A DNA stretch of 42,403 bases from Clostridia bacterium (lineage in GTDB: Bacteria > Bacillota > Clostridia > Lachnospirales > Lachnospiraceae). Numbering within the stretch: position 1 is the stretch's first letter; every line of letters begins with the position of its first letter. Shown piece by piece: positions 1 through 39,863 of the stretch. Location of the stretch: positions 1 to 42,403 of the forward strand of contig JAQXQS010000188.1 of assembly GCA_029101305.1 (NCBI GenBank), in the 5' to 3' direction. Under the pieces are notes generated by a model. That model saw only the letters and a program-made list of their open reading frames with translations, ran no database searches and was not told the DNA's origin. The position numbers and the translations under genes were made by a program.

Positions 1-537
1 AAATATGTCTGTGCGCCTCCGATCCGTAAAAAAGAAGATCAGGACTGCCTGTGGAAGGCATTGGCAGATGGTGCGATCCAGACGGTAGCTACAGACCAGT
101 GCAGCTTTACTCTTGCACAGAAAGCACTTGGTAAGGATGACTTTACCAGGATTCCAGGTGGATTGCCAGGTGTTCAGACAAGAGGGACACTTCTTTATAC
201 ATATGGTGTGCGTACAGGCAGGATCACAGTGGAGAAAATGTGCCAGCTTTTATGCGAAAATCCAGCCAGACTATACGGCGTCTATCCAGAGAAAGGGGTA
301 ATCCGGGAAGGCAGCGATGCGGATATTGTTGTGTTTGATCCGGAAAAAGAAAGTGTGATCTCTGCAAAGACCCATGCGTATCATACTGATAACAATCCGT
401 ATGAAGGCTTCCGGCTTCATGGGGATATTGATAAGGTATTTCTCCGTGGGAGTCTTGCTGTGGATGATGGAAAGCTGATTCAGGAGAAGCTTGGAAAATA
501 TATAAAAAGAGGACTGAGACAGCCGCTTAATAATTAG
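1..537 (+). CDS. Dihydropyrimidinase/hydantoinase-like amidohydrolase, C-terminal part
   Basis: The frame is open from the first base and ends at TAG 535-537, giving the last 178 residues of a longer protein. The visible part contains the end of the metal-dependent amidohydrolase barrel (ATDQCSF, a region where D-hydantoinases carry a late substrate/metal loop) and the closing beta-sandwich signature GSDADIVVFDP typical of dihydropyrimidinases. Such enzymes open cyclic amide rings of dihydropyrimidines, hydantoins or related purine breakdown products. An XdhC-like gene nearby suggests a purine/pyrimidine catabolic cluster extending upstream of the window. The exact substrate cannot be told from this fragment. 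Confidence 0.85.
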   Translation, partial: KYVCAPPIRKKEDQDCLWKALADGAIQTVATDQCSFTLAQKALGKDDFTRIPGGLPGVQTRGTLLYTYGVRTGRITVEKMCQLLCENPARLYGVYPEKGVIREGSDADIVVFDPEKESVISAKTHAYHTDNNPYEGFRLHGDIDKVFLRGSLAVDDGKLIQEKLGKYIKRGLRQPLNN

Positions 538-541
538 TAAA

Positions 542-637
542 AAAGCCAGAACGTGTTTGAAAAGAGGTATCTGCAAAATTTCCCACAAAGTGGGGGTGCA
601 GATTGCGGGAAAGATTTTTCAAACATGTTCTGGCTTT
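542..637. terminator. Long composite hairpin between convergent genes
   Basis: An outer stem is formed by AAAGCCAGAACGTGTTTGAA at 542-561 and its near-perfect complement at about 617-637. An inner stem pairs ATCTGCA 569-575 with TGCAGAT 597-603, capped by CCCAC/GTGGG. T-runs or A-runs flank both sides. It sits between the converging amidohydrolase and symporter genes, so it probably works as a bidirectional terminator; it may also be a copy of a small dispersed repeat. Confidence 0.65.
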
Positions 638-654
638 CTTTCTATCAAATGTAA

Positions 655-1872
655 TTATCTGTATTTCTGGAATTCTATATCGGTTTCATGCCGCTTGACA
701 TAACCATTTAGAAATAGTATCAATGCACCATCACAGGTGGCATTGCAGGCGGCGGCAAAGGCATCGTGAAGAGCGAATGCTGCAAACATAAGAGCGATGC
801 CCGAGTCACCGAATTTCAGGATTCCGGTGAGGACTCCAAGAGATACCATCACAGTTCCCCATGGAAGCCCTGGGGTACCAAGGGAACAGGTGGCAAGCAG
901 AAGACTGAAAATTACCATTGTTCCTGGTGCAGGCACAGAGCCATAAAGGATCCGGGAGATCATCATGGCAAAAAATACTTCAGCGAGCACAGAACCACAG
1001 TGATGAATCTGTGTAAAAAGAGGGATTACTTCCCCAGCAAGCTTCGGGGAAAGCATTTCGCATTTTGTAGCAGCCTCCTGGGAATATTTTTCTGTGGCTG
1101 TGGAAGATGGATTTTTCAGTGCTGTTTTACATGTGGGCATATAATTTTTCAGGATCTTCCAGGGCTTTTCCCCGGAATAGGAGCCTGCAATATGATACAG
1201 GATCACTACCCATAGGCAATAGGCCGGTATGACGATGATAAGAGCCAGAAGCAGCAGAGGCAGATACTTAATAAAATACCCCTGATAAGCCAGTGTGCAC
1301 AGGGAAAGCCCGATATAGGCCGGCAGCAACGGCAGAAGAATCCGTGACATCAGGGAAAGTGTGATTCCCCGAAGTTCATTTATAAGCTCTTTGGTTCGTA
1401 TGGCATTTGTCCAACAGGCACCAAATCCCAGAAGCACCGAGAGCATCAAAGCACTGAGGGCAGAAACAGGTGCCGGGATCGGAAGCTCAAACAAGGTGTC
1501 CGGTAAAAAACGGAAAGAAAGACTATCTGTAGATACGGGAAGCCTTGGGATGATCAGATAACCAAGGATGGCTGCAAATGCTGCAGCTCCAAGCATGGAA
1601 AGATAAGTAATGCGGATGACTGGGGCAGTAGCCGGTGTAGGGTCTTTTTTGGCGGAAATAATGGAAGAGGCCATAAGACCTATGATGATCACAGGTGCCA
1701 GAAATGTGATCAATTGGCTGAGTACATAACGGGCGGTGACTACCAGATTTAGTATTCCTGAAGTCAGCCCCATAGTACGTGTGGCATTAAAAAACAGGCC
1801 TGCAAGTAGGCCAGGTATACTGACTGCCAGAATCCGGAATGGAAAACTGGCCATAATTCTTTTTTTCTTCAT
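655..1872 (-). CDS. Dicarboxylate/amino acid:cation symporter (DAACS/SDF family)
   Basis: The 405-residue product has about eight to ten hydrophobic segments and the layout of sodium/dicarboxylate symporters: an N-terminal FPFRILAVSIPGLLAGL stretch, a long hydrophilic loop at roughly 240-290, and a C-terminal HDAFAAACNATCDGALI segment in the position of the substrate-binding TM8 of the family. It would import a carboxylate or amino acid across the membrane with cations. The ATG at 1872 is preceded by GGAGG ten bases upstream and a strong promoter. Substrate is not assignable. It is transcribed alone, divergently from xdhC. Confidence 0.75.
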   Translation of the reverse strand: MKKKRIMASFPFRILAVSIPGLLAGLFFNATRTMGLTSGILNLVVTARYVLSQLITFLAPVIIIGLMASSIISAKKDPTPATAPVIRITYLSMLGAAAFAAILGYLIIPRLPVSTDSLSFRFLPDTLFELPIPAPVSALSALMLSVLLGFGACWTNAIRTKELINELRGITLSLMSRILLPLLPAYIGLSLCTLAYQGYFIKYLPLLLLALIIVIPAYCLWVVILYHIAGSYSGEKPWKILKNYMPTCKTALKNPSSTATEKYSQEAATKCEMLSPKLAGEVIPLFTQIHHCGSVLAEVFFAMMISRILYGSVPAPGTMVIFSLLLATCSLGTPGLPWGTVMVSLGVLTGILKFGDSGIALMFAAFALHDAFAAACNATCDGALILFLNGYVKRHETDIEFQKYR

Positions 1873-1893
1873 TGTGAAAATTCCTCCGCATGT

Positions 1894-1922
1894 ATTATAA
1901 TATACAGAAAAGAAAGGTGCAA
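1894..1922 (-). promoter_or_regulatory. Promoter of the DAACS symporter gene
   Basis: On the minus strand TTGCAC (1922-1917) and TATAAT (1899-1894) are separated by exactly 17 bases. The predicted start leaves a short leader containing the GGAGG site. Confidence 0.7.
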
Positions 1923-1996
1923 TGAAAACTTGGCAGGTATCTGGGGGAACATTGTCCGATCCCTGCAGGCGATAATTATAAAAGAGGTGACAGGTA

Positions 1997-3046
1997 ATGT
2001 ATAATAAAATCTATGAAATTCTGGATAAAAAAGGAAGAGTCAGAACCGGAACTTTTCTGGATGGTCCATACATGGGAAAGAAATGTATTTTACCATCTGG
2101 TATGACAGTACAAGAGGAAAAAGATTGTGAAACAGCTAAAAGTAATTCACGTATGCAGCTGCTTACAGAGAACCCGGAAGAAAAATCAATATGGACTCCG
2201 TATTTAAATATACTGGAAGAGACCAGGGAAACAAAAGTGATAGAAGCAGAAGGACAACAGCTTTTTATAGAAGATTACCGCAAGAATCCACATCTTGTGA
2301 TCTTTGGGGGAGGGCATGTATCCCAGCCAACAGCCCATCTTGGGAAAATGCTTGGCTTTCATGTGACGATCATGGATGACAGGGAAGAATTTGTAACGAG
2401 AGAACGTTTTCCAGAGGCAGACGAGCTGGTTTTTGGTGATTTTAAGGAACTGGACAAGTATATTCTGCCTTATGAGAATGCTTATTACGTGATACTCACC
2501 AGGGGGCATATTGGGGATGCGGACTGTCTTCGGAGGGTGCTAAACCGTCCTTATGAATATCTTGGAATGATCGGAAGTAAGAATAAAGTACGGATCACCA
2601 GGGAGAATCTTCTTAGTGAAGGGGTCAGCAGGGAAAAACTGGATGAAGTGCATGCACCTATTGGAATTCCCCTTGGAGGCCAGCTTCCAGAGGAAATTGC
2701 GGTGAGCATCATGGCAGAGATCATCAAGGTGAAAAACATGCATTATTCTGCATACTGTGATGAAAAAGTAGAGGCCGCAGTAATGGAGGGACGTCATGGA
2801 GTGATGGTTACCATTGCGAAGAAGTCAGGTTCTTCCCCGCGAGGTGTGGGAAGCAAAATGTTCGTGGAAGCTTCCGGGCATATAACAGGAAGTATCGGTG
2901 GAGGTAAAGTGGAGTTTGAAGCAATCCGTCACTGTAAAGAAGTGGAAGAAAAAGATGTGAAGCATTACGCACTGACAACAGATGGAAAGGATAGTCTGGG
3001 AATGATCTGCGGAGGACAGGTGACAGTAGTATTTGAGAGAATCTAG
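1997..3046 (+). CDS. XdhC/CoxI family molybdenum hydroxylase accessory protein
   Basis: The 349-residue protein has a Rossmann NAD(P)-like domain with HLVIFGGGH at 99-107 followed by a canonical DDREEF stretch, and a C-terminal XdhC_CoxI segment (about 255-349) ending in MICGGQV with Cys338. Members insert or sulfurate the molybdenum cofactor of xanthine dehydrogenase-type enzymes. The order Rossmann then CoxI segment, preceded by a short unrelated-looking N-terminus, differs from classical proteobacterial XdhC where the Cys-bearing domain comes first. AAAGAGGTGA at 1981 supports the ATG at 1997. No hydroxylase subunit is in the window; it may lie upstream with the amidohydrolase. Confidence 0.8.
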   Translation: MYNKIYEILDKKGRVRTGTFLDGPYMGKKCILPSGMTVQEEKDCETAKSNSRMQLLTENPEEKSIWTPYLNILEETRETKVIEAEGQQLFIEDYRKNPHLVIFGGGHVSQPTAHLGKMLGFHVTIMDDREEFVTRERFPEADELVFGDFKELDKYILPYENAYYVILTRGHIGDADCLRRVLNRPYEYLGMIGSKNKVRITRENLLSEGVSREKLDEVHAPIGIPLGGQLPEEIAVSIMAEIIKVKNMHYSAYCDEKVEAAVMEGRHGVMVTIAKKSGSSPRGVGSKMFVEASGHITGSIGGGKVEFEAIRHCKEVEEKDVKHYALTTDGKDSLGMICGGQVTVVFERI

Positions 3047-3068
3047 AGCCTTTTTCAAACAGGCTCTA
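3044..3068. repeat. Hairpin overlapping the xdhC stop codon
   Basis: TAGAGCCT (3044-3051, including the stop codon) and AGGCTCTA (3061-3068) form a perfect 8-bp stem with a 9-base loop. There is no following T-run, so termination is uncertain; it could protect the 3' end. Confidence 0.4.
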
Positions 3069-3142
3069 AGGCAGAAAGCATGGATAATGATTATCTGTAA
3101 CAGGAGAAAACGATCGACAAAACGATCGGCTGCACTTAGGGC

Positions 3143-3171
3143 TTGCATATTTTGTAATAATACTGTATATT
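3143..3171 (+). promoter_or_regulatory. Promoter of the SH3b lipoprotein gene
   Basis: TTGCAT (3143-3148), 17-base spacer, TATATT (3166-3171). Transcription would start near 3178, giving a leader of about 100 bases before the ATG at 3282. Confidence 0.65.
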
Positions 3172-3281
3172 AATTGTAACGATTCGCAGAAAGAGTCTGT
3201 TTTTGTAATGTAATTATAATGTAATTAAGAGAAGATGAATCAATTCAAAGCAGCGATGCTTTGTAAAGGAGGAATACTATT

Positions 3282-3806
3282 ATGAAAAGAGCAGGTTTGG
3301 CAGTTTTGCTTCTTGGTGCAGCACTTTGCATCCCGGGATGTGGATTTGAAGAAGGCGCAGGAGCAAGCGTTACAGTTATACAGGCAACCCCTACACCGAT
3401 TCCCACTCCCACACCAGAGGTTACCCCGACTCCAGAGGCAACTCCTACACCTGAGGTTGTAGTGGTACAGACTGCAAGCGGTGTAAATGTAACCAAACAG
3501 GATGGTACATATGTTGCAAATGCAGATGTAAACCTTCGTGCAGATGCCAGTGCAGACGCAGCACTGATCGCAAGCGTAGCAAATGGCACTCAGCTCACCA
3601 GCACAGGTGTATGTGATAATGGCTGGGTTGAGATTTCCTATGAAGGACAGACTGCATATGTATCTGGCGATTATGTAAGTGCAGTGGCAGCAGATACAGC
3701 AGCTGACGGTGCAGCCGCAGATGGTGCTGCAGCAGACGGAAGTGTAGACCAGGCAGCATTTACAGATGGCAGCGCAGATGCTTCAGCAGAGGCAGTAGCA
3801 GGCTGA
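3282..3806 (+). CDS. SH3b-domain lipoprotein, cell-surface
   Basis: The 174-residue product begins with a lipoprotein signal ending at IPGC (Cys20), so it is probably anchored outside the membrane. A linker at about 35-58 is made of Pro-Thr-Pro-Glu repeats and likely spans the wall. Residues about 70-130 form a bacterial SH3 domain (VNLRADAS, GTQLTSTGVCDNGWVEISY, GQTAYVSGDYVS), which usually binds peptidoglycan. The tail is rich in Ala, Asp and Gly with three AAADG-type repeats. AAAGGAGG eleven bases upstream supports the start. No enzymatic domain is present; the role may be wall binding or anchoring. Confidence 0.8.
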   Translation: MKRAGLAVLLLGAALCIPGCGFEEGAGASVTVIQATPTPIPTPTPEVTPTPEATPTPEVVVVQTASGVNVTKQDGTYVANADVNLRADASADAALIASVANGTQLTSTGVCDNGWVEISYEGQTAYVSGDYVSAVAADTAADGAAADGAAADGSVDQAAFTDGSADASAEAVAG

Positions 3807-3829
3807 TACAGTAATCTATGGTTACTGTA
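3807..3829 (+). repeat. Perfect 8-bp hairpin after the lipoprotein gene
   Basis: TACAGTAA (3807-3814) and TTACTGTA (3822-3829) start directly after the stop codon with a 7-base loop. No T-run follows, so it is not a complete intrinsic terminator. Confidence 0.4.
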
Positions 3830-3916
3830 GAGATAACGCTCTTTACCTTGTAACGCATTGGATGTCTGGCTATGAGCCAAACGGTGATGCATATACTGGC
3901 CAGCGAGAATGAGAAT

Positions 3917-3964
3917 GGAAAACGCTATGTAATGGATTTTGAATCTGTTATGTAGCGTTTTTTG
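3917..3964 (+). terminator. Intrinsic terminator downstream of the SH3b lipoprotein
   Basis: AAAACGCTA near 3919-3927 pairs with TAGCGTTTT near 3953-3961, and the stem runs into six T residues. It lies between two converging genes. Confidence 0.7.
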
Positions 3965-3971
3965 TGCAAAT

Positions 3972-4004
3972 AAAAAGAACCCTTTCCGAAAAATCAGAAA
4001 GGGT
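3972..4004 (-). terminator. Intrinsic terminator of luxS
   Basis: On the minus strand ACCCTTTC (4004-3997) and GAAAGGGT (3987-3980) form an 8-bp stem followed by TCTTTTTATTT. It begins 12 bases after the luxS stop codon. Confidence 0.8.
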
Positions 4005-4016
4005 AATCAGAAAACG

Positions 4017-4496
4017 TTATTTAGGATAAACCAGTCTGTCTGGCTGGATATCATAGAGTACTTCATCCAGGAACTTTTTGGCAAGGTATTTGGCCATGCC
4101 AAGATTCATATCCAGGTAATTTCCACAATCTTTAGCAGAAGCGCCAGGTACTTCACCCTTGAAGTCCCGGATAAATTCAAAGGTCTCGGTCATAAGTGGA
4201 ACGATATCTTTGGATTCATAATCTCCATTCAGCAGCAGATAATTGCCTGTGCGGCATCCCATAGGACCCCAGTAGATCATTTTCGGACCGAATTCCTTAT
4301 GGTTGCGCAGAAAAGTGGCTGCAAGATGCTCAATGGTGTGAAGCTCTGCGGTATTCATAACCGGTTCTTCGTTGGGGGAAGTCATGCGGATGTCAAAAGT
4401 AGTGATCATGCTGTTTCCAACCGGATCTTTACGGGAAACATAAACGCCCGGCTGAAGCTTGATATGGTCTATTGTAAAACTGGTGATTTTTTCCAT
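4017..4496 (-). CDS. luxS: S-ribosylhomocysteine lyase LuxS
   Basis: This 159-residue enzyme has the full LuxS signature: the metal-binding motif HTIEH (His53, His57) with Cys124 in DCGNY as third ligand, and GPMGCRTG carrying the catalytic Cys81. It cleaves S-ribosylhomocysteine to homocysteine and DPD, the autoinducer-2 precursor, in the activated methyl cycle in the cytosol. Length and motifs match the family end to end. It stands alone as a monocistronic unit with its own promoter and terminator; no pfs (mtnN) gene is adjacent. Confidence 0.97.
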   Translation of the reverse strand: MEKITSFTIDHIKLQPGVYVSRKDPVGNSMITTFDIRMTSPNEEPVMNTAELHTIEHLAATFLRNHKEFGPKMIYWGPMGCRTGNYLLLNGDYESKDIVPLMTETFEFIRDFKGEVPGASAKDCGNYLDMNLGMAKYLAKKFLDEVLYDIQPDRLVYPK

Positions 4497-32324: not shown

Positions 32325-32700
32325 ACTGCAGAAAGTAGAAGTTGCCTTGGATATGAGAAAGAACCAGACGGAATGATTGTAGTTGTGCCGAAGTAGGCAA
32401 AAACGATAAAGCTGATTTATAAGCTGTTCCTGGACGGCATGACCGTGCATACCATTGCCGGAGAACTTACCAAACGAGGCATCAAGACACCCGGCGGCAA
32501 GGATAAATGGAATCAGTCAACAGTGCGGAGTAATCTTGCTAACGAAAAATATAAAGGCGATGCTCTACTGCAGAAATCCTGCACAGTAGATTTTTTGACA
32601 AAGAAAACGAAAACCAATGAAGGTGAAGTGCCGCAGTATTATGTGGAAAATAACCACGAAGCAATCATTGCTCCGCAGATTTACTGCTGCATCATCTACC
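32325..32700 (+). pseudogene. Remnant of a large serine recombinase
   Basis: In one frame the translation reads GYEKEPDGMIVVVPK, TAG (32394-32396), AKTIKLIYKLFLDGMTVHTI, then GELTKRGIKTPGGKDKW and further to YYVENNHEAII. This is the recombinase domain following the catalytic part in large serine recombinases of mobile elements. The N-terminal catalytic domain and the C-terminal coiled coil are absent, there is a stop where Gln is expected, and the tail after about 32690 is unrelated. So it is a decayed fragment, probably left by the element that brought the island. Confidence 0.7.
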
Positions 32701-32745
32701 AGTGCAATAATAAGTTTCGGAATAAAACTTACTTTCTATTTCAGT

Positions 32746-32767
32746 TTTTTGCAGTAAACTGCAAAAA
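32746..32767. terminator. Hairpin after the recombinase remnant
   Basis: TTTTTGCAG (32746-32754) and CTGCAAAAA (32759-32767) form a 9-bp stem with a TAAA loop. It is A/T flanked and could terminate weakly in either direction. Confidence 0.4.
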
Positions 32768-32805
32768 TCTTTTGCTACACAGATTGATTTTATTCGCACT
32801 TTAGC

Positions 32806-33227: not shown

Positions 33228-34736
33228 ATGGCGGATAAAACAAATGCAAACATTGGCTTTGAAAAACAGCTGTGGGATGCAGCTTGTGTATTGTGGGGGC
33301 ATATCCCGGCAGCAGAATATAGAAAGGTTATTATCGGATTGATTTTCCTGCGGTACATTTCTGCTGCGTTTGATAAACGGTATCAGGAACTTATAGCAGA
33401 AGGTGACGGTTTCGAGGATGATCGTGATGCTTATGAGATGGACAATGTTTTTTTTGTTCCGGAAGAAGCTCGCTGGAGCAACATTGCATCCAAAGCACAC
33501 ACACCGGAAATCGGTACAATCATTGATAATGCAATGAGAGCTATTGAAGCAGAAAACAAAAAGCTGAAAAATGTATTGCCGAAGAATTATGCGAGTCCAG
33601 ATTTGGATAAGCGAATCTTAGGTGATGTGGTAGATATTTTTACAAATAACATTGACATGAGTGACACGACTGCAAGTGAAGACCTGCTCGGTCGTACTTA
33701 TGAATACTGCATTGCTCAGTTTGCAGAAAAAGAAGGTGTCGGTGGCGGTGAATTCTATACACCGTCCAGTGTTGTAAAAACTCTGGTTTCCATTCTTCGT
33801 CCGTTTGATAACTGCCGAGTATACGATTGCTGCTGCGGCTCAGGCGGTATGTTTGTGCAGAGTGAAAAGTTTATTGAAGCACACGGTCACAAACGTGGCG
33901 CAATTTCTGTGTATGGGCAGGAAGCAAATCCGGATACGTGGAAGATGGCAAAAATGAACATGGCAATCCGAGGTATTGATGCTGATCTGGGACCATACAA
34001 TGCGGATACATTTACAAGTGACCTGCATCCAACACTGAAAGCAGACTTTATTCTCGCTAATCCCCCATTCAATTATCATCCGTGGGGACAGGAAAAGCTG
34101 ACAGAGGACAAGCGTTGGAAGTACGGTCTGCCGCCTGCCGGTAATGCCAACTACGCATGGATTCAGCACATGATTTATCACCTTGCACCGAACGGAAAAA
34201 TTGGTCTGGTACTGGCGAATGGTGCGTTGTCTACGCAGAGCAGCGGCGAAGGCGAAATCAGAAAGAAAATCATCGAGGACGATCTGATTGAAGGTATTAT
34301 TGCAATGCCTACCCAGCTTTTTTACAGCGTAACGATTCCTGTTACCCTGTGGTTCATCACAAAGGGTAAAAAGCAGTCGGGCAAGACACTGTTCATTGAT
34401 GCTCGTAAGATGGGACATATGGTTGACCGCAAGCATCGTGATTTTACCGATGAAGATATTCAGAGATTGGCAGATACCTTTGAAGCATTCCAGAATGGCA
34501 CACTGGAAGATGTGCAGGGATTCTGCAAGGTGGCTACCCTTGAGGATATTGCAAAACAGGATTATATTCTGACACCTGGACGCTATGTAGGCATTGAAGA
34601 ACAGGAAGATGACGGAGAGCCGTTTGAGGATAAAATGAATCGATTGACTTCCGAACTGTCGGAAATGTTTGCAAAGTCTCATGAATTGGAGGACGAAATC
34701 AGAAAGAAGCTGGGGGCGATTGGATATGAAATCTAA
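33228..34736 (+). CDS. hsdM: Type I restriction-modification DNA methyltransferase subunit HsdM
   Basis: The 502-residue subunit methylates adenine at the site chosen by HsdS. The helical N-terminal domain (about 10-140) is followed by the N6-methyltransferase fold: motif I DCCCGSGGMF at 200 onward (usually D-P-C-C; here D-C-C-C) and the catalytic NPPF at 278-281. The C-terminal region (about 470-502) is helical and contacts HsdS. GGAGG seven to ten bases before the ATG. It overlaps hsdS by 11 bases. Confidence 0.95.
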   Translation: MADKTNANIGFEKQLWDAACVLWGHIPAAEYRKVIIGLIFLRYISAAFDKRYQELIAEGDGFEDDRDAYEMDNVFFVPEEARWSNIASKAHTPEIGTIIDNAMRAIEAENKKLKNVLPKNYASPDLDKRILGDVVDIFTNNIDMSDTTASEDLLGRTYEYCIAQFAEKEGVGGGEFYTPSSVVKTLVSILRPFDNCRVYDCCCGSGGMFVQSEKFIEAHGHKRGAISVYGQEANPDTWKMAKMNMAIRGIDADLGPYNADTFTSDLHPTLKADFILANPPFNYHPWGQEKLTEDKRWKYGLPPAGNANYAWIQHMIYHLAPNGKIGLVLANGALSTQSSGEGEIRKKIIEDDLIEGIIAMPTQLFYSVTIPVTLWFITKGKKQSGKTLFIDARKMGHMVDRKHRDFTDEDIQRLADTFEAFQNGTLEDVQGFCKVATLEDIAKQDYILTPGRYVGIEEQEDDGEPFEDKMNRLTSELSEMFAKSHELEDEIRKKLGAIGYEI

Positions 34737-35229
34737 GTTATCGGATATTTGCTTCTATGCTAAAGGAAAAGTTGATGTATCCGGTTTAACAGATACAGAC
34801 TACATTTCAACAGAAAATATGCTGCCTAATAAGGGCGGTATAACTACTGCGTCATCGCTCCCAAGTACTGCTCAAACACAGGCTTATATGAAAGATGATG
34901 TTTTGGTATCAAACATAAGACCGTATTTCAAGAAAATATGGTTTGCTGATTGCAACGGTGGCTGTTCAAATGATGTGCTGGTATTCAGAGCAAAAGAGGA
35001 CACAGATTCCAGATTCCTTTATTATGTGCTTGCTGATGATGCGTTCTTTGATTATTCAACAGCAACATCGAAAGGCACAAAAATGCCTCGTGGTGACAAA
35101 ACCGCAATAATGCAATATGATGTACCGCATTTTGAGTTGCAAACCCAAAAGAAAATAGCGGGGATTTTGGCAGATATAGATGACAAAATTGCTTTAAATA
35201 TCAACATAAACAAGAATTTAGCGGCTTAA
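34726..35229 (+). CDS. hsdS: Half-length HsdS specificity subunit (first target recognition domain)
   Basis: ATG 34726 overlaps the end of hsdM. The 167-residue product contains one target recognition domain (about 1-135) and one conserved helix (KKIAGILADIDDKIALNI), after which full-length HsdS proteins continue NKNLEQQ. Here it ends LAA-stop, the stop codon coming from the inverted segment. Typical HsdS is about 380-420 residues with two such domains. A half subunit might pair with itself. See the inverted second half at 35226-35885. Confidence 0.88.
   Translation: MKSKLSDICFYAKGKVDVSGLTDTDYISTENMLPNKGGITTASSLPSTAQTQAYMKDDVLVSNIRPYFKKIWFADCNGGCSNDVLVFRAKEDTDSRFLYYVLADDAFFDYSTATSKGTKMPRGDKTAIMQYDVPHFELQTQKKIAGILADIDDKIALNININKNLAA
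35208..35221 (+). repeat. Left inverted repeat of the hsdS switch
   Basis: AAACAAGAATTTAG, identical to the complement of 35867-35880. It encodes NKNL in the hsdS frame on both arms, so recombination keeps the reading frame. Confidence 0.85.
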
Positions 35230-35865
35230 AGGTCGATGCCTGAAACATCAAGCTCGCTGGACATCAGTTTTGGAAGCAATGCATCTCTCAATGCAGCTAA
35301 CCGTTTGTTTTCCAATCGGTTAGTTACAATTTGATCAATCATTGGAGCTGTAATTTCATCGAATCGGTCAAGTGATGTTTTGTCTGGAAGCGTAATTTCA
35401 AATGCATCATAATCTTTTTTCCCGATATGGATAACCGTAGTTGCTACTTGTGTCTGTTCAATCACATTCAGCAATGGTTTTATGGCAAAAAAGACAAAGG
35501 CTTTTCCTTTAGGACGTTTATTTTCAAAAATGCAAACTCGCTGATTTAGCCAAGCTGATTCATTTCCCCAAATATATGGGCGAAATTCACCATCCATACC
35601 TACTATAATGTCACCTGGCTGAATTAGATGCCCTTTAGGGTGTTCCTCGGTGGTATATGTAACAAACTCCTGATTTTTTAAATCACGAATTCTAATGATA
35701 GGTTTTCCGATTCCATCCGTGTTGAACAACTTTGAAGAAAATGGTGCGCCATAAATAATATCTGCAATGGAATATATGTCGGTCTTACTCCAGTTTTCTG
35801 GCTGTGCCCCATTGAAGGGTTCAAAGTCAATAAACCAAGACTTATAAAGTGCTTCCATTTGCTGC
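35226..35865 (-). CDS. Inverted, silent 3' half of hsdS (second target recognition domain)
   Basis: The minus-strand frame reads EQQMEALYKSWFIDFEPF, then a second target recognition domain (ENWSKTDIYSIADIIYGAPF to about DKTSLDRFDEI), then the conserved C-terminal helix NKRLAALRDALLPKL. This is exactly the part missing from the plus-strand half. The frame also runs outward through the repeat to a GTG at 35885 (ANKNLEQQ), but no ribosome site or promoter is seen, so it is probably not expressed in this orientation. Confidence 0.85.
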
Positions 35866-35866
35866 T

Positions 35867-35880
35867 CTAAATTCTTGTTT
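35867..35880 (-). repeat. Right inverted repeat of the hsdS switch
   Basis: Reverse complement of 35208-35221, 14 of 14 bases. Together the repeats bound a 645-bp invertible segment. Confidence 0.85.
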
Positions 35881-35920
35881 GCCACGAAAAGTATAACGAA
35901 AAAAGGAGTGTGATTAACCT

Positions 35921-38900
35921 ATGGCTGGCTTTTATACCGAAGCAGACTATGAAAATTCTGTCATAGAGCTATTTCAGAATATGGGGTATCGGTATGTCTA
36001 TGCTCCAGATTTGGAGCGTGACTTCAAAAGCCCCCTGTATGAAGATGAATTAGATGAAGCGTTGCATCGTCTGAATCCGGATATGCCGGAGGACGCAATC
36101 CTTGATGCTTTGTATAAGCTGAAAAACTTTGAAAATGCGGAACTGGTGCAGAAAAACGCTCTTTTCATGGATTATATTCAGCACGGCGTGGAAGTACGTT
36201 ATTTTGTCAAGGGCGAGGAACGCTCCGGCTTGGTGTATCTTGTCGATTACAAGAATCCGGATAACAACTCTTTTATCGTGGCGAACCAGTGGACATTTAT
36301 TGAGAACAGCAACAAACGCCCCGATGTGCTGCTGTTTTTGAATGGTCTGCCGGTGGTGTTGATAGAGCTGAAGTCCCCTTCTCGTGAGGAAACGGACGCA
36401 TCCGAGGCATACACCCAGATTCGCAACTATATGCATGAAATTCCGTCCATGTTCATTTATAACTGTATCTGCGTTATGAGTGATCTTATGACATCGAAAG
36501 CAGGTACAATTACATCCGGCGAAGACCGTTTCATGGAATGGAAAACAAAGGACGGCAGCTACGAAAATACACAGTATGCACAGTTTGATACATTCTTTGA
36601 GGGTATTTTTGAAAAAGAGCGTCTGCTGGACATCATCAAGAACTTTATCTGCTTTTCCAATGAGGGAACAAAGCAGTTCAAGATTTTAGCAGGCTATCAT
36701 CAGTATTTTGCAGTCAATAAGGCTGTACTTTCCACGAAACACGCAACGGAAACGGACGGCAAGGGTGGCGTGTTCTGGCATACACAGGGCAGCGGCAAGT
36801 CGCTGTCGATGGTGTTTTATGCCCATCGCCTGCAAGATGCACTGGATAGCCCGACCATCGTAGTTATCACAGACCGTAACGATCTGGATGACCAGCTTTA
36901 CGGGCAATTTGCCAAGTGCAAGGATTTTCTGCGTCAAGAGCCAGTTCATGCTGAAAGCCGGGTGCATTTGAAAGAATTACTGGACGGTAGAAAAGCAAAC
37001 GGCATTATTTTTACCACAATGCAGAAATTTGAGGAATCCTTTGATTGCCTTTCTGAGCGCAGAAATATTGTGGTTATGGCGGATGAAGCTCATCGTGGGC
37101 AGTACGGTTTGAAAGAAAAGGTCGATGCCAAGACAGGTGAAATCAAAATCGGTTCTGCCCGTATTATCCGCAATGCTCTGCCGAATGCAACTTTTATCGG
37201 ATTTACCGGAACACCGATTTCTATGAAAGACCGTAATACTCGTGAAGTGTTTGGTGACTACATAGATATTTACGACATGACACAGGCAGTTGAAGATGGT
37301 GCTACTCGTCCGGTATATTACGAAAGTCGTGTTATTAAGCTGAAACTGGATGAGCAGACGTTGAAGCTCATTGACCAAGAATATGATATTATGGCAAACA
37401 ATGCCGACCCGGAGGTTATCGAAAAGAGTAAAAAAGAACTGGGTCAGATGGAAGTCATTCTTGGTAATGAGAAAACTATTAACTCCCTTGTGGATGATAT
37501 TCTGAACCACTACGAAAATTATCGTGCAAATTTGCTTACAGGAAAGGCAATGATCGTGGCGTATTCCCGTCCTATTGCTATGAAGATATATAAGCGTATC
37601 TTGCAGCTTCGTCCAGGATGGACAGATAAGGTTGCTGTTGTTATGACAAGCAGTAACAAAGATCCGGAAGAATGGAATAAAATCATCGGCAATAAACACC
37701 ATAAGGATGAGCTGGCAAAGGAATTTAAGGATAATGACAGTCCGTTGAAGATAGCCATTGTCGTGGATATGTGGCTGACGGGATTTGATGTGCCGTCTCT
37801 TGCAACCATGTATGTGTACAAGCCGATGCAGGGTTATAATCTGATGCAGGCTATTGCCAGAGTCAACCGTGTATTTGGAGATAAGGAAGGCGGTCTAGTT
37901 GTCGATTATGTTGGCATTGCTTCAGCACTGAAGCAGGCACTGAACGATTACACTGCCCGAGATAAGAAAAAATACGGAGATACCGATGTTGCCAAAGTTG
38001 CCTATCCGAAGTTCCTTGAGAAACTGTCTATTTGCCGGGATTTGTTCCACGGTTATGATTATTCCAAGTTTATGACGAGTACGGATTTGGAACGTTCCAA
38101 AGCAATCAGCGGTGCGGTTAACTTTATTGTCGGCGTGGATAAGGAACAGGAGCGAGAGGATTTCCAGAAGGAGGCATTACTGCTCAGGCAGGCTTTATCG
38201 TTGTGTTCCTCCTTAGCAGAAAAAGAACTGCGTGTGGAAGCAGCATTCTTTGAATCCGTTCGTGTGCTTGTCACAAGGCTGATGAATCAGGGCGAAGGTA
38301 AGAAAATATCTTTACCGGAAATGAATGCTCGTATTAATGAATTGCTGAAAGCCAGTGTTCAGAGCGAAGGTGTCATTAACCTTTTCTCGGATGTAAATCA
38401 GGAATTTTCACTCTTTGATCCGCAGTTCCTTGAGGAAATCTCCAAAATGAAGGAGAAAAACCTTGCTGTAGAACTGTTGAAAAAGCTGATTGCAGAACAA
38501 GTGCAGATTTACCGTCATACGAATGTGGTGAAGTCACAGAAATTCAGCGAGATTATCCAGCGCGCCATGAATGCGTATCTGAACGGAATGCTGACCAATG
38601 AACAAGTTATTGAAGAACTGCTGAACTTGGCAAAGCAGATTGCAGCTGCCCATAAAGAGGGAGATCAGCTCGGTTTGACGGCGGATGAGTTGGCATTCTA
38701 TGATGCTCTGACAAAGCCGCAGGCCATTAAGGATTTCTATGAAAACGAAGAACTGATTGCCATTACAAAAGAATTGGCAGATACGCTTCGTAAAAACAGA
38801 ACGATAGATTGGCAAAAAAGGGATTCTGCCAGAGCGAAAATGCGTATGATGATTAAGCGACTGCTTAAAAAGCATCGTTATCCGCCGGAAGGAATGGAAG

Positions 38901-39049
38901 ATGCGGTGCAGACCGTTATGACGCAATGTGAGCTGTGGACGGATAATAATGATATGGAGAATCACACTGAAAATAGCAAGGTGTATACCTATTCTCCGAA
39001 ACCAGAATTGAGTATGGTTGCTGAAGACCCAGCACCGTATGGGAAATAG
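35921..39049 (+). CDS. hsdR: Type I restriction endonuclease subunit HsdR
   Basis: The 1042-residue motor and nuclease subunit cleaves unmodified DNA after ATP-driven translocation. The N-terminal PD-(D/E)xK nuclease has Asp135, Glu149 and Lys151 (PDVLLFL, VLIELKS). The helicase has Walker A TQGSGKS (Lys293), DEAH at 388-391, GFTGTPI and a later QAIARVNR. The C-terminus is helical. GGAG lies twelve bases upstream, a rather long spacing. Length is typical of a full HsdR and no frame break is seen. Confidence 0.96.
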   Translation: MAGFYTEADYENSVIELFQNMGYRYVYAPDLERDFKSPLYEDELDEALHRLNPDMPEDAILDALYKLKNFENAELVQKNALFMDYIQHGVEVRYFVKGEERSGLVYLVDYKNPDNNSFIVANQWTFIENSNKRPDVLLFLNGLPVVLIELKSPSREETDASEAYTQIRNYMHEIPSMFIYNCICVMSDLMTSKAGTITSGEDRFMEWKTKDGSYENTQYAQFDTFFEGIFEKERLLDIIKNFICFSNEGTKQFKILAGYHQYFAVNKAVLSTKHATETDGKGGVFWHTQGSGKSLSMVFYAHRLQDALDSPTIVVITDRNDLDDQLYGQFAKCKDFLRQEPVHAESRVHLKELLDGRKANGIIFTTMQKFEESFDCLSERRNIVVMADEAHRGQYGLKEKVDAKTGEIKIGSARIIRNALPNATFIGFTGTPISMKDRNTREVFGDYIDIYDMTQAVEDGATRPVYYESRVIKLKLDEQTLKLIDQEYDIMANNADPEVIEKSKKELGQMEVILGNEKTINSLVDDILNHYENYRANLLTGKAMIVAYSRPIAMKIYKRILQLRPGWTDKVAVVMTSSNKDPEEWNKIIGNKHHKDELAKEFKDNDSPLKIAIVVDMWLTGFDVPSLATMYVYKPMQGYNLMQAIARVNRVFGDKEGGLVVDYVGIASALKQALNDYTARDKKKYGDTDVAKVAYPKFLEKLSICRDLFHGYDYSKFMTSTDLERSKAISGAVNFIVGVDKEQEREDFQKEALLLRQALSLCSSLAEKELRVEAAFFESVRVLVTRLMNQGEGKKISLPEMNARINELLKASVQSEGVINLFSDVNQEFSLFDPQFLEEISKMKEKNLAVELLKKLIAEQVQIYRHTNVVKSQKFSEIIQRAMNAYLNGMLTNEQVIEELLNLAKQIAAAHKEGDQLGLTADELAFYDALTKPQAIKDFYENEELIAITKELADTLRKNRTIDWQKRDSARAKMRMMIKRLLKKHRYPPEGMEDAVQTVMTQCELWTDNNDMENHTENSKVYTYSPKPELSMVAEDPAPYGK

Positions 39050-39153: not shown

Positions 39154-39489
39154 TTAGTCATGCAGATTCATGTTTTTCAATGCTTTGAGCTGATTCCGCT
39201 TTGCGTAGATTACATTCAGAATATATACCTTGCCGGATGCATCATCCGGTCTGTAGTAGATATAAAAGTTCTTGGCTATGATTTTTCGCACGCCTCTGGA
39301 ATGCCAGGGTTCCCGCTCTATGGGAGCGATACTGGAAGCCATGTATGTCAGCTTTTGTATCTCGCTGCGAATAACGCGAATGTAATTCAGTGCGACATCA
39401 GGGACTAACAAGGTGTATGCGATGTAGTCCCTGATTTCAAAAAGGTCAGCTTCTGCATCTGGTGTAATGATGATTTCATAGGAATCCAC
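39154..39489 (-). CDS. RelE/ParE-family toxin
   Basis: The 111-residue protein has the plasmid-stabilisation (ParE/RelE) fold features: ITPDAEADLFEIRDYIA at the N-terminus, and the C-terminal VRKIIAKNFYIYYRPDD and VYILNVIYAKRNQL strands. Start is GTG 39489, immediately after the antitoxin stop (TAAGTG), so the two are coupled. Whether it cleaves ribosome-bound mRNA or poisons gyrase cannot be told. It stands directly behind hsdR on the opposite strand. Confidence 0.85.
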   Translation of the reverse strand: MDSYEIIITPDAEADLFEIRDYIAYTLLVPDVALNYIRVIRSEIQKLTYMASSIAPIEREPWHSRGVRKIIAKNFYIYYRPDDASGKVYILNVIYAKRNQLKALKNMNLHD

Positions 39490-39786
39490 TTATTTAAGGC
39501 TCCTTTCCAGATCGTCAAACACATCGCTCATTAGTCGACCCTCACCGGCAATTGCCTGTGCGTAACTATGCTGAAGTTTTGTATCAAGTTCAGCATCAGA
39601 CATTGCATCAACGGTTCTTGGTTCTGCCGGAATCGTCAGAGAGAAAGGAATACCATGATGATAAATGATCTGACGGTAAAGGGAATTGATTACAACAGAA
39701 ACAGGAACACCGAGTTTCTGCAGGATGTCTTCTGCTTCGATTTTTACATTATTTTCAACGCGGGCACTTACGGTTGAATCTTTCAT
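39490..39786 (-). CDS. RelB/DinJ-family antitoxin
   Basis: From ATG 39786 (AGGAGG eight bases upstream) the product is 98 residues. It has a ribbon-helix-helix start (STVSARVENNVKIEAEDILQ, LGVPVSVVINSLYRQII) and a C-terminal tail that would wrap the toxin. It would bind its own promoter and neutralise the toxin downstream. An upstream extension to 39843 is not supported by the ribosome site. Confidence 0.87.
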   Translation of the reverse strand: MKDSTVSARVENNVKIEAEDILQKLGVPVSVVINSLYRQIIYHHGIPFSLTIPAEPRTVDAMSDAELDTKLQHSYAQAIAGEGRLMSDVFDDLERSLK

Positions 39787-39809
39787 CTTAAACACCTCCT
39801 GTTGACTAC

Positions 39810-39838
39810 ATTGTAATTCATTGTTATGCAGATTGCAA
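39810..39838 (-). promoter_or_regulatory. Promoter of the toxin-antitoxin operon
   Basis: Minus-strand TTGCAA (39838-39833), 17-base spacer, TACAAT (39815-39810). It is 24 bases ahead of the antitoxin start. Confidence 0.65.
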
Positions 39839-39863
39839 GACATATTATATGAATAATAGGCAA

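Follow-up and report, generated by a model that had tools for sequence, protein, structure and literature searches.

A Type I restriction-modification locus with a reversed hsdS half between two short inverted sites, probably a reduced form of a four-site switching locus

The window, that is, the whole stretch of DNA analysed here, is contig C188 (42,403 bases) of a draft Clostridia genome (3.52 Mb, 226 contigs, 93.7% complete). According to the domain search, it carries a Type I restriction-modification locus with complete M and R subunits and an S subunit in two pieces. The hsdM gene (33228-34736, plus strand) is intact and encodes a methyltransferase subunit of 502 amino acids (Pfam N6_Mtase, E = 3.1e-109; HsdM_N, 4.7e-26). 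Its end overlaps the start of the hsdS N half (34726-35229, plus strand), which encodes 167 amino acids ending in NKNLAA-stop (Methylase_S, 3.6e-10). The C half, with the second target recognition domain (TRD) and the second conserved helix, lies reversed at 35226-35880 on the minus strand (Methylase_S, 1.5e-10), in a reading frame that spans 35226-35885. Each half covers nearly the whole Methylase_S model. A TTAA at 35226-35229 is the stop for the N half on the plus strand and for the C half on the minus strand. The intact hsdR gene (35921-39049, plus strand) follows and encodes a restriction subunit of 1042 amino acids with HSDR_N, SWI2_SNF2 and T1RH-like_C domains. The initial annotation had described a one-TRD HsdS on the plus strand, its second half on the minus strand and no recombinase gene for it in the window. 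We found the same two halves, and no recombinase gene between hsdM and hsdR.

The surroundings contain two further features. A piece of a large serine recombinase (PF07508) lies just upstream of hsdM (32439-32804, plus strand); it may be what is left of an element with which the restriction-modification island arrived. Genes for a ParE-like toxin and a RelB-like antitoxin lie directly 3' of hsdR (39154-39843, minus strand).

Site 1 (35208-35221, plus strand) and site 2 (35867-35880, minus strand, 40 bases before hsdR) are the arms of a perfect 14-bp inverted repeat, AAACAAGAATTTAG, 645 bp apart, and consist of the core AAACAAGAATTTA plus G. Both copies lie at the junction of an N and a C half and in the same codon phase, as had been proposed. 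The inverted copies stand around the C half. The segment between them (35222-35866) holds the remainder of hsdS in reverse. Flipping it by script reproduced the predicted HsdS of 378 residues, with a stop that ends at 35862. The source assembly contains the segment in a single orientation. The exact 14-mer occurs in this assembly only as the two window copies, with three more places at one mismatch.

A chance origin of the repeat was rejected on a shuffle test and on the recurrence of the core in relatives. When 34726-35920 was shuffled 300 times with its dinucleotides preserved, 2 of the shuffled sequences held a perfect 14-bp inverted repeat whose arms were 100 bp or more apart. This test leaves out the junction position, the shared codon phase and the recurrence. 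The core, AAA[CT]NANAATTTA, recurs in 51 loci with at least two sites, the window counted in. One and the same core is present at all the sites of a locus in 49 of these 51, and eight core types exist between loci. Shuffling the cores among loci gave a mean of 5.2 concordant loci and a maximum of 14 (10,000 trials). Such concordance would be expected of a crossover region that needs a match within the locus. The repeats are not peculiar to this strain: relatives carry a 13-bp core of this kind where their N and C halves meet. Judged by sequence, the window repeat is a genuine site of recombination, and the segment between its arms is a cassette found in either orientation in relatives. A recombinase presumably acts on these sites.

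The end of the half protein is also conserved. Of 78 C-end-like site neighbours (window and L017-L105), 76 have a TTAA/TTAG-like stop on both strands, and in these cases the half HsdS stops two codons past NxNL. One of the two misses, L045, resembles a C start labelled by chance. This built-in double stop gives the half HsdS a fixed end, and common ancestry may explain part of its conservation. In IMG/VR, an exact 26-base pattern found no instance of the same N-half junction, and five pattern matches to C-half relatives gave no confirmed case.

We used HsdM as the query for relatives and took the best 80 of 368 matches in genome contigs (83-93% identity), plus 9 in IMG/VR. The loci surveyed for their layout were L017-L105, L198-L236, L266-L285 and L293-L299, in total 123 non-duplicate loci after 8 duplicates were dropped. 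A recombinase is present in 51 of them. The common order among the relatives is hsdM, N1, site 1 (+), C1, site 2 (-), recombinase, N2, site 3 (+), C2, site 4 (-), hsdR. At 33 loci, one of them a duplicate, the recombinase belongs to one coherent family, with Phage_integrase (1.3e-30 in the L027 copy) and SAM-like N domains. Among 392 genomes sampled from the order, 35 had matches to it at E <=1e-60, some only 38-40% identical. In L018, L029 and L045, 34-40 bases separate site 4 from hsdR, and the second site of the window, at 40 bases, holds the same place. The analysis thereby shows the parts of the window locus, its sites and the type of locus in which such sites are found.

Forty-six of the recombinase-bearing loci were laid out; L019, L032 and L086 (two sites) and L211 and L298 (odd) were left aside. 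L028 was unscorable owing to a run of N. Mirror or chance core matches in L055 and L203 were removed manually, and L200 and L271 each had one ambiguous label that was disregarded. Among the 45 scorable loci, 44 encode one full and one half HsdS. The arrangement is split evenly, N1 being the full one in 22 loci and N2 in the other 22, and two-half loci are absent. The single two-full locus, L040, was counted against the rule, although tblastn shows only one C half there. L072 with L235 (read as one locus on two contigs) and L198 (hsdM match below 45% identity) were kept outside the count; both conform.

If each cassette flipped freely and equally, two-full or two-half loci would be expected in about half of the cases. 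The full and half forms are kept together, so the relatives do not look as if each cassette flips freely. Two kinds of paired exchange could keep the balance: sites 1 and 3 together with sites 2 and 4, or sites 1 and 4 together with sites 2 and 3. Alternatively, selection against the two-full and two-half states could produce it. Larger inversions occur too, since the recombinase gene itself is reversed in three loci (L017, L029 and L097). For comparison, the available part of one report describes an inverted xerD in five Streptococcus agalactiae strains and none in S. suis (PMC10790761).

Two relatives differ by the flip proposed for the window. The loci L077 and L082 belong to two genomes from a collection that holds one genome per species. 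They are identical at 1501/1503 positions in hsdM, 474/474 in N1 and 1618/1620 in the recombinase plus N2. Their C1 cassettes match at 848/850 positions only when one of them is reversed (49% otherwise), and their C2 cassettes differ in either orientation (48-50%). The HsdS of L077 is full, with 378 residues; that of L082 is a half of 167 residues ending in NKNLAA. These sizes are those of the flipped and the present form of the window, and the L082 N half is 80% identical to the window N half. The pair shows a net in-place flip of one C cassette, so the flip can happen where a recombinase is present. A single fixed orientation in all relatives, which would have spoken against an invertible segment, is contradicted.

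The closest layout to the window was found in L058. It has the N/C pair of the window (N half 119/167 identical, reversed C1 166/217) and likewise the arrangement with reversed C1, and beyond this a recombinase and a second, full hsdS downstream. The window looks like the first cassette of L058 alone. In L293, a one-site locus, the C half of the window is found forward (163/217 identical) within an HsdS of 389 amino acids. These matches identify the reversed half as a genuine C half of HsdS. In the same genus, an HsdM search of 64 genomes matched 33 and, besides the window, gave only distant or partial loci and no same-species four-site locus. The best of these matches had 55% identity over most of the length, and one piece of 181 residues at a contig end had 84%.

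A search of the source assembly with the L018 recombinase brought up no family member; of its ten matches the best has 65.5 bits. As a positive scale, this query scores 427-534 bits against family members in the genomes of L027, L072 and L054. The seven Pfam-detected tyrosine integrases of the source genome reach 78 bits at best, against more than 500 for family members. With 226 contigs and a completeness of 93.7%, the assembly may lack a recombinase that the genome encodes elsewhere. Two integrases were set aside as agents at the window site: that on C124, which sits behind the hsdR of a second Type I locus, and that on C105, whose match to the family is in the catalytic part only (65.5 bits). 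Either may act in trans on the window site. The initial annotation had the locus alternating between two states. This was not borne out: no family recombinase was found in the assembly, which has a single orientation, and the recombinase-bearing relatives keep one full and one half HsdS.

The second Type I locus of this genome appears to be split inside hsdS at two contig ends (C147:1-2189, L006; C124:1-4200, L009 and L015). A tyrosine integrase of 315 amino acids lies behind its hsdR. It is possibly another shuffling hsdS of a different type.

The window is one of 14 two-site loci found without a recombinase. Where hsdR is reached and the labels are clear, five encode a full HsdS (L030, L065, L083, L084 and L093) and only the window a half. 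Where hsdR is not reached, L022 and L063 have a half only, and L048 and L280 a full HsdS. One site has an unclear label in each of L062, L075 and L087, and L072 has its recombinase on another contig (529 bits). We searched 14 genomes for the recombinase, 13 with two-site or similar loci and that of L027 as positive control. A family member is present in the genomes of L054 (427 bits, strong), L030 (250 bits, distant) and L062 (157 bits). The genomes of L065, L083, L084, L093, L022 and L063, drafts in part, gave no recombinase match above 78 bits. L087 and L062 look decayed. In the recombinase-free loci L054 and L062, the first N half continues past the site into other sequence, with signs of decay.

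The half protein was modelled with AlphaFold2 (mean pLDDT 92.8) and is predicted to have one TRD and a helix at 138-166. In the full-length model of L077 (mean pLDDT 82.5) the equivalent helix covers 138-177. The site would therefore cut the helix, with 29 of 40 residues kept and 11 lost. Foldseek gave the S subunits 7vru, 1yf2 and 3okg as best PDB fold matches. It also returned the short Esub1 chains 8vsr and 8vsq (184-196 residues); the term Esub1 was not found in the literature searched. The statement that half HsdS proteins of EcoR124I and EcoDXXI work as dimers agrees with the literature, at least in the portions available, which describe such homodimers for NgoAV too (PMC3874165, PMC2877798, PMC9577141). 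The same portions report them for Type IC only (PMC3874165) and give EcoR124I SNT as residues 1-215, with the central conserved region retained (PMC2877798). With 29 of the 40 helix residues kept, dimer function of the half protein encoded here is possible.

Our preferred reading, which we regard as moderately probable, is that the window is a reduced locus of the four-site SsuCC20p kind, the remnant of an excision between direct sites, and probably locked in the half state. The parent would have had two C-half cassettes, flanked by four short sites (+,-,+,-) at which a tyrosine recombinase acts, with one N half joined to a C half and the other unjoined. Recombination between direct sites (1 with 3, or 2 with 4) would remove the recombinase at a single stroke, together with one C half and the second N half. 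The product would be hsdM-N1-site-C-site-hsdR. One such excision would leave either one full HsdS or one half, without the recombinase. In the window the remaining C half was a reversed one, and so no full HsdS is encoded. Without a recombinase the half state would probably be fixed, and restriction and modification with two-part specificity would then be off. As for the half protein, it could be inactive, or it might serve as a homodimer at a symmetric site.

This reading is supported by the core concordance, the four-site relatives, L058, the spacing between site 2 and hsdR, and the lack of a family recombinase in the assembly. Comparable losses are reported. S. suis isolates 215-4156 and 216-4157 are without xerD, TRD2 and TRD3 in the described part of the data (PMC10790761). 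We read this as the same loss as in the window, if TRD2 and TRD3 are equated with C1 and N2. For pneumococcal SpnIV, a lost excised circle and a shortened locus are discussed in the passages at hand (PMC6265443). As no same-species four-site version was found, we infer the excision from relatives that are 71-82% identical in the half proteins; the lock and the activity state of the locus are likewise inferred. Some findings count against this reading. Of the six clear two-site loci that reach hsdR and have no recombinase, five are full and only the window is half. Moreover, the L077/L082 pair shows that a cassette can flip in place. The two-site form could also be ancestral rather than derived. 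Finally, a long-standing inactivity fits poorly with the intact state of hsdM, hsdR and the two halves of hsdS.

The rival that survives best, which we still consider unlikely, is an active two-site switch, the view taken in the initial annotation, in which a recombinase encoded elsewhere flips 35222-35866 between the full 378-residue HsdS and the half. The halves are intact and in phase, and L077 and L082 differ by this very flip; their C2 cassettes differ as well. Recombinase-free two-site loci occur in both orientations (seven full, three half with the window), and the L030 genome has the distant family member. Such a switch lacks a family recombinase in the source assembly and any match above 78 bits in the six genomes listed above. 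Free flipping also predicts otherwise than the pairing of full and half forms, and the contig runs unbroken through both window sites.

We give little credence to a mixed population, in which most cells have a four-site locus with the recombinase and the assembler retained an excised or shortened form. Excised circles are known for SpnIV, according to the section available (PMC6265443). The contigs of relatives point in this direction. Among 50 non-duplicate loci in which hsdR is not reached, the contig ends at the last base of the first plus site in 8 and one base later in 2, which suggests two continuations in the reads; six of the 50 stopped at the limit of the extracted flank and not at a contig end (L041, L061, L063, L066, L076 and L103). 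Against it, the window contig is unbroken, and no contig with an extra C half, N half or recombinase of the system was found in the assembly. A 14-bp repeat should also be too short for a false join at usual k-mer sizes.

A further reading gives the half a role of its own, and we find it similarly doubtful. Coupled recombination would yield exactly one full and one half HsdS, and the half would be made for a purpose and not be mere debris. In L022, L063 and the window, the half would then be the only specificity subunit of the locus, and the enzyme would change from a bipartite to a symmetric site. That the half is itself the working state, with the 167-residue HsdS dimerising through its 29-residue helix and directing methylation and cleavage at a symmetric site, seems to us very improbable: the published homodimers, the confident model with its matches to S subunits and Esub1 chains and the fixed end at the double stop favour it, whereas 11 helix residues are lost where EcoR124I SNT retains its central conserved region, and the homodimers are reported for Type IC only.

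The locus is a small test case, free of a recombinase, for the activity of a half HsdS made by inversion. It also bears on how a Type I switch keeps from encoding either two specificities or no specificity at all. Sites of this kind recur in many Bacillota genomes, with their variable bases matched within the locus. Of the by-products of the analysis, the rule that a full HsdS goes with a half is the most interesting. A rule of one complete hsdS is reported for S. suis, where, in the part of the study available, no strain among the complete loci had a truncated hsdS only (PMC10790761). It extends here to the 44 of 45 scorable relatives. A caution also follows: a reversed hsdS half in an assembly alone does not equal a working ON/OFF switch.

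Among known systems, SsuCC20p of Streptococcus suis is like the window in its hsdM and hsdR, in N and C TRDs that meet at a 14-bp site, and in C cassettes between inverted copies, as far as the available parts of its descriptions go (PMC10790761, PMC5198162). Its repeat is TAAATGATGATTTA, where the window has the core AAACAAGAATTTA, and the 13-bp core of the S. suis repeat also occurs in L276, L277, L296 and L299. Unlike SsuCC20p, the window has two sites and not four, no second N/C pair, no recombinase between cassettes and no complete hsdS. L058, L077, L082 and 41 other recombinase-bearing relatives share hsdM, hsdR and the core type with the window, and L058 also the N1/C1 types and arrangement. 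They differ from it by their recombinase, a second N/C pair, and one full plus one half HsdS.

The hsd loci of Listeria monocytogenes are also Type I and shuffled by inversion, with an integrase between two hsdS; in the excerpts at hand they have two repeat pairs of other sequence, whereas the window has one core only (PMC4783014, PMC7662400). The SpnIV tvr locus of pneumococcus can be likened to the window, since its recombinase and TRDs are excised as a circle and a shortened locus can remain. In contrast, it acts through direct repeats, and the consulted part describes no reversed halves (PMC6265443). EcoR124INT, EcoDXXI deltaC and NgoAV have, like the window, a half HsdS with one TRD. Those halves arose by design, transposon or frameshift; EcoR124I SNT has the central conserved region, and a similar size is given, in the portions seen, for the others (PMC2877798, PMC3874165, PMC9577141). 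The initial annotation had set the locus apart from the common cassette-swap type, but its relatives are of that type and the window appears as its reduced form. Compared with these systems, the window is not a new type of switch. It carries a switching Type I locus of a known kind in reduced form, and the half state of this locus is most likely fixed.
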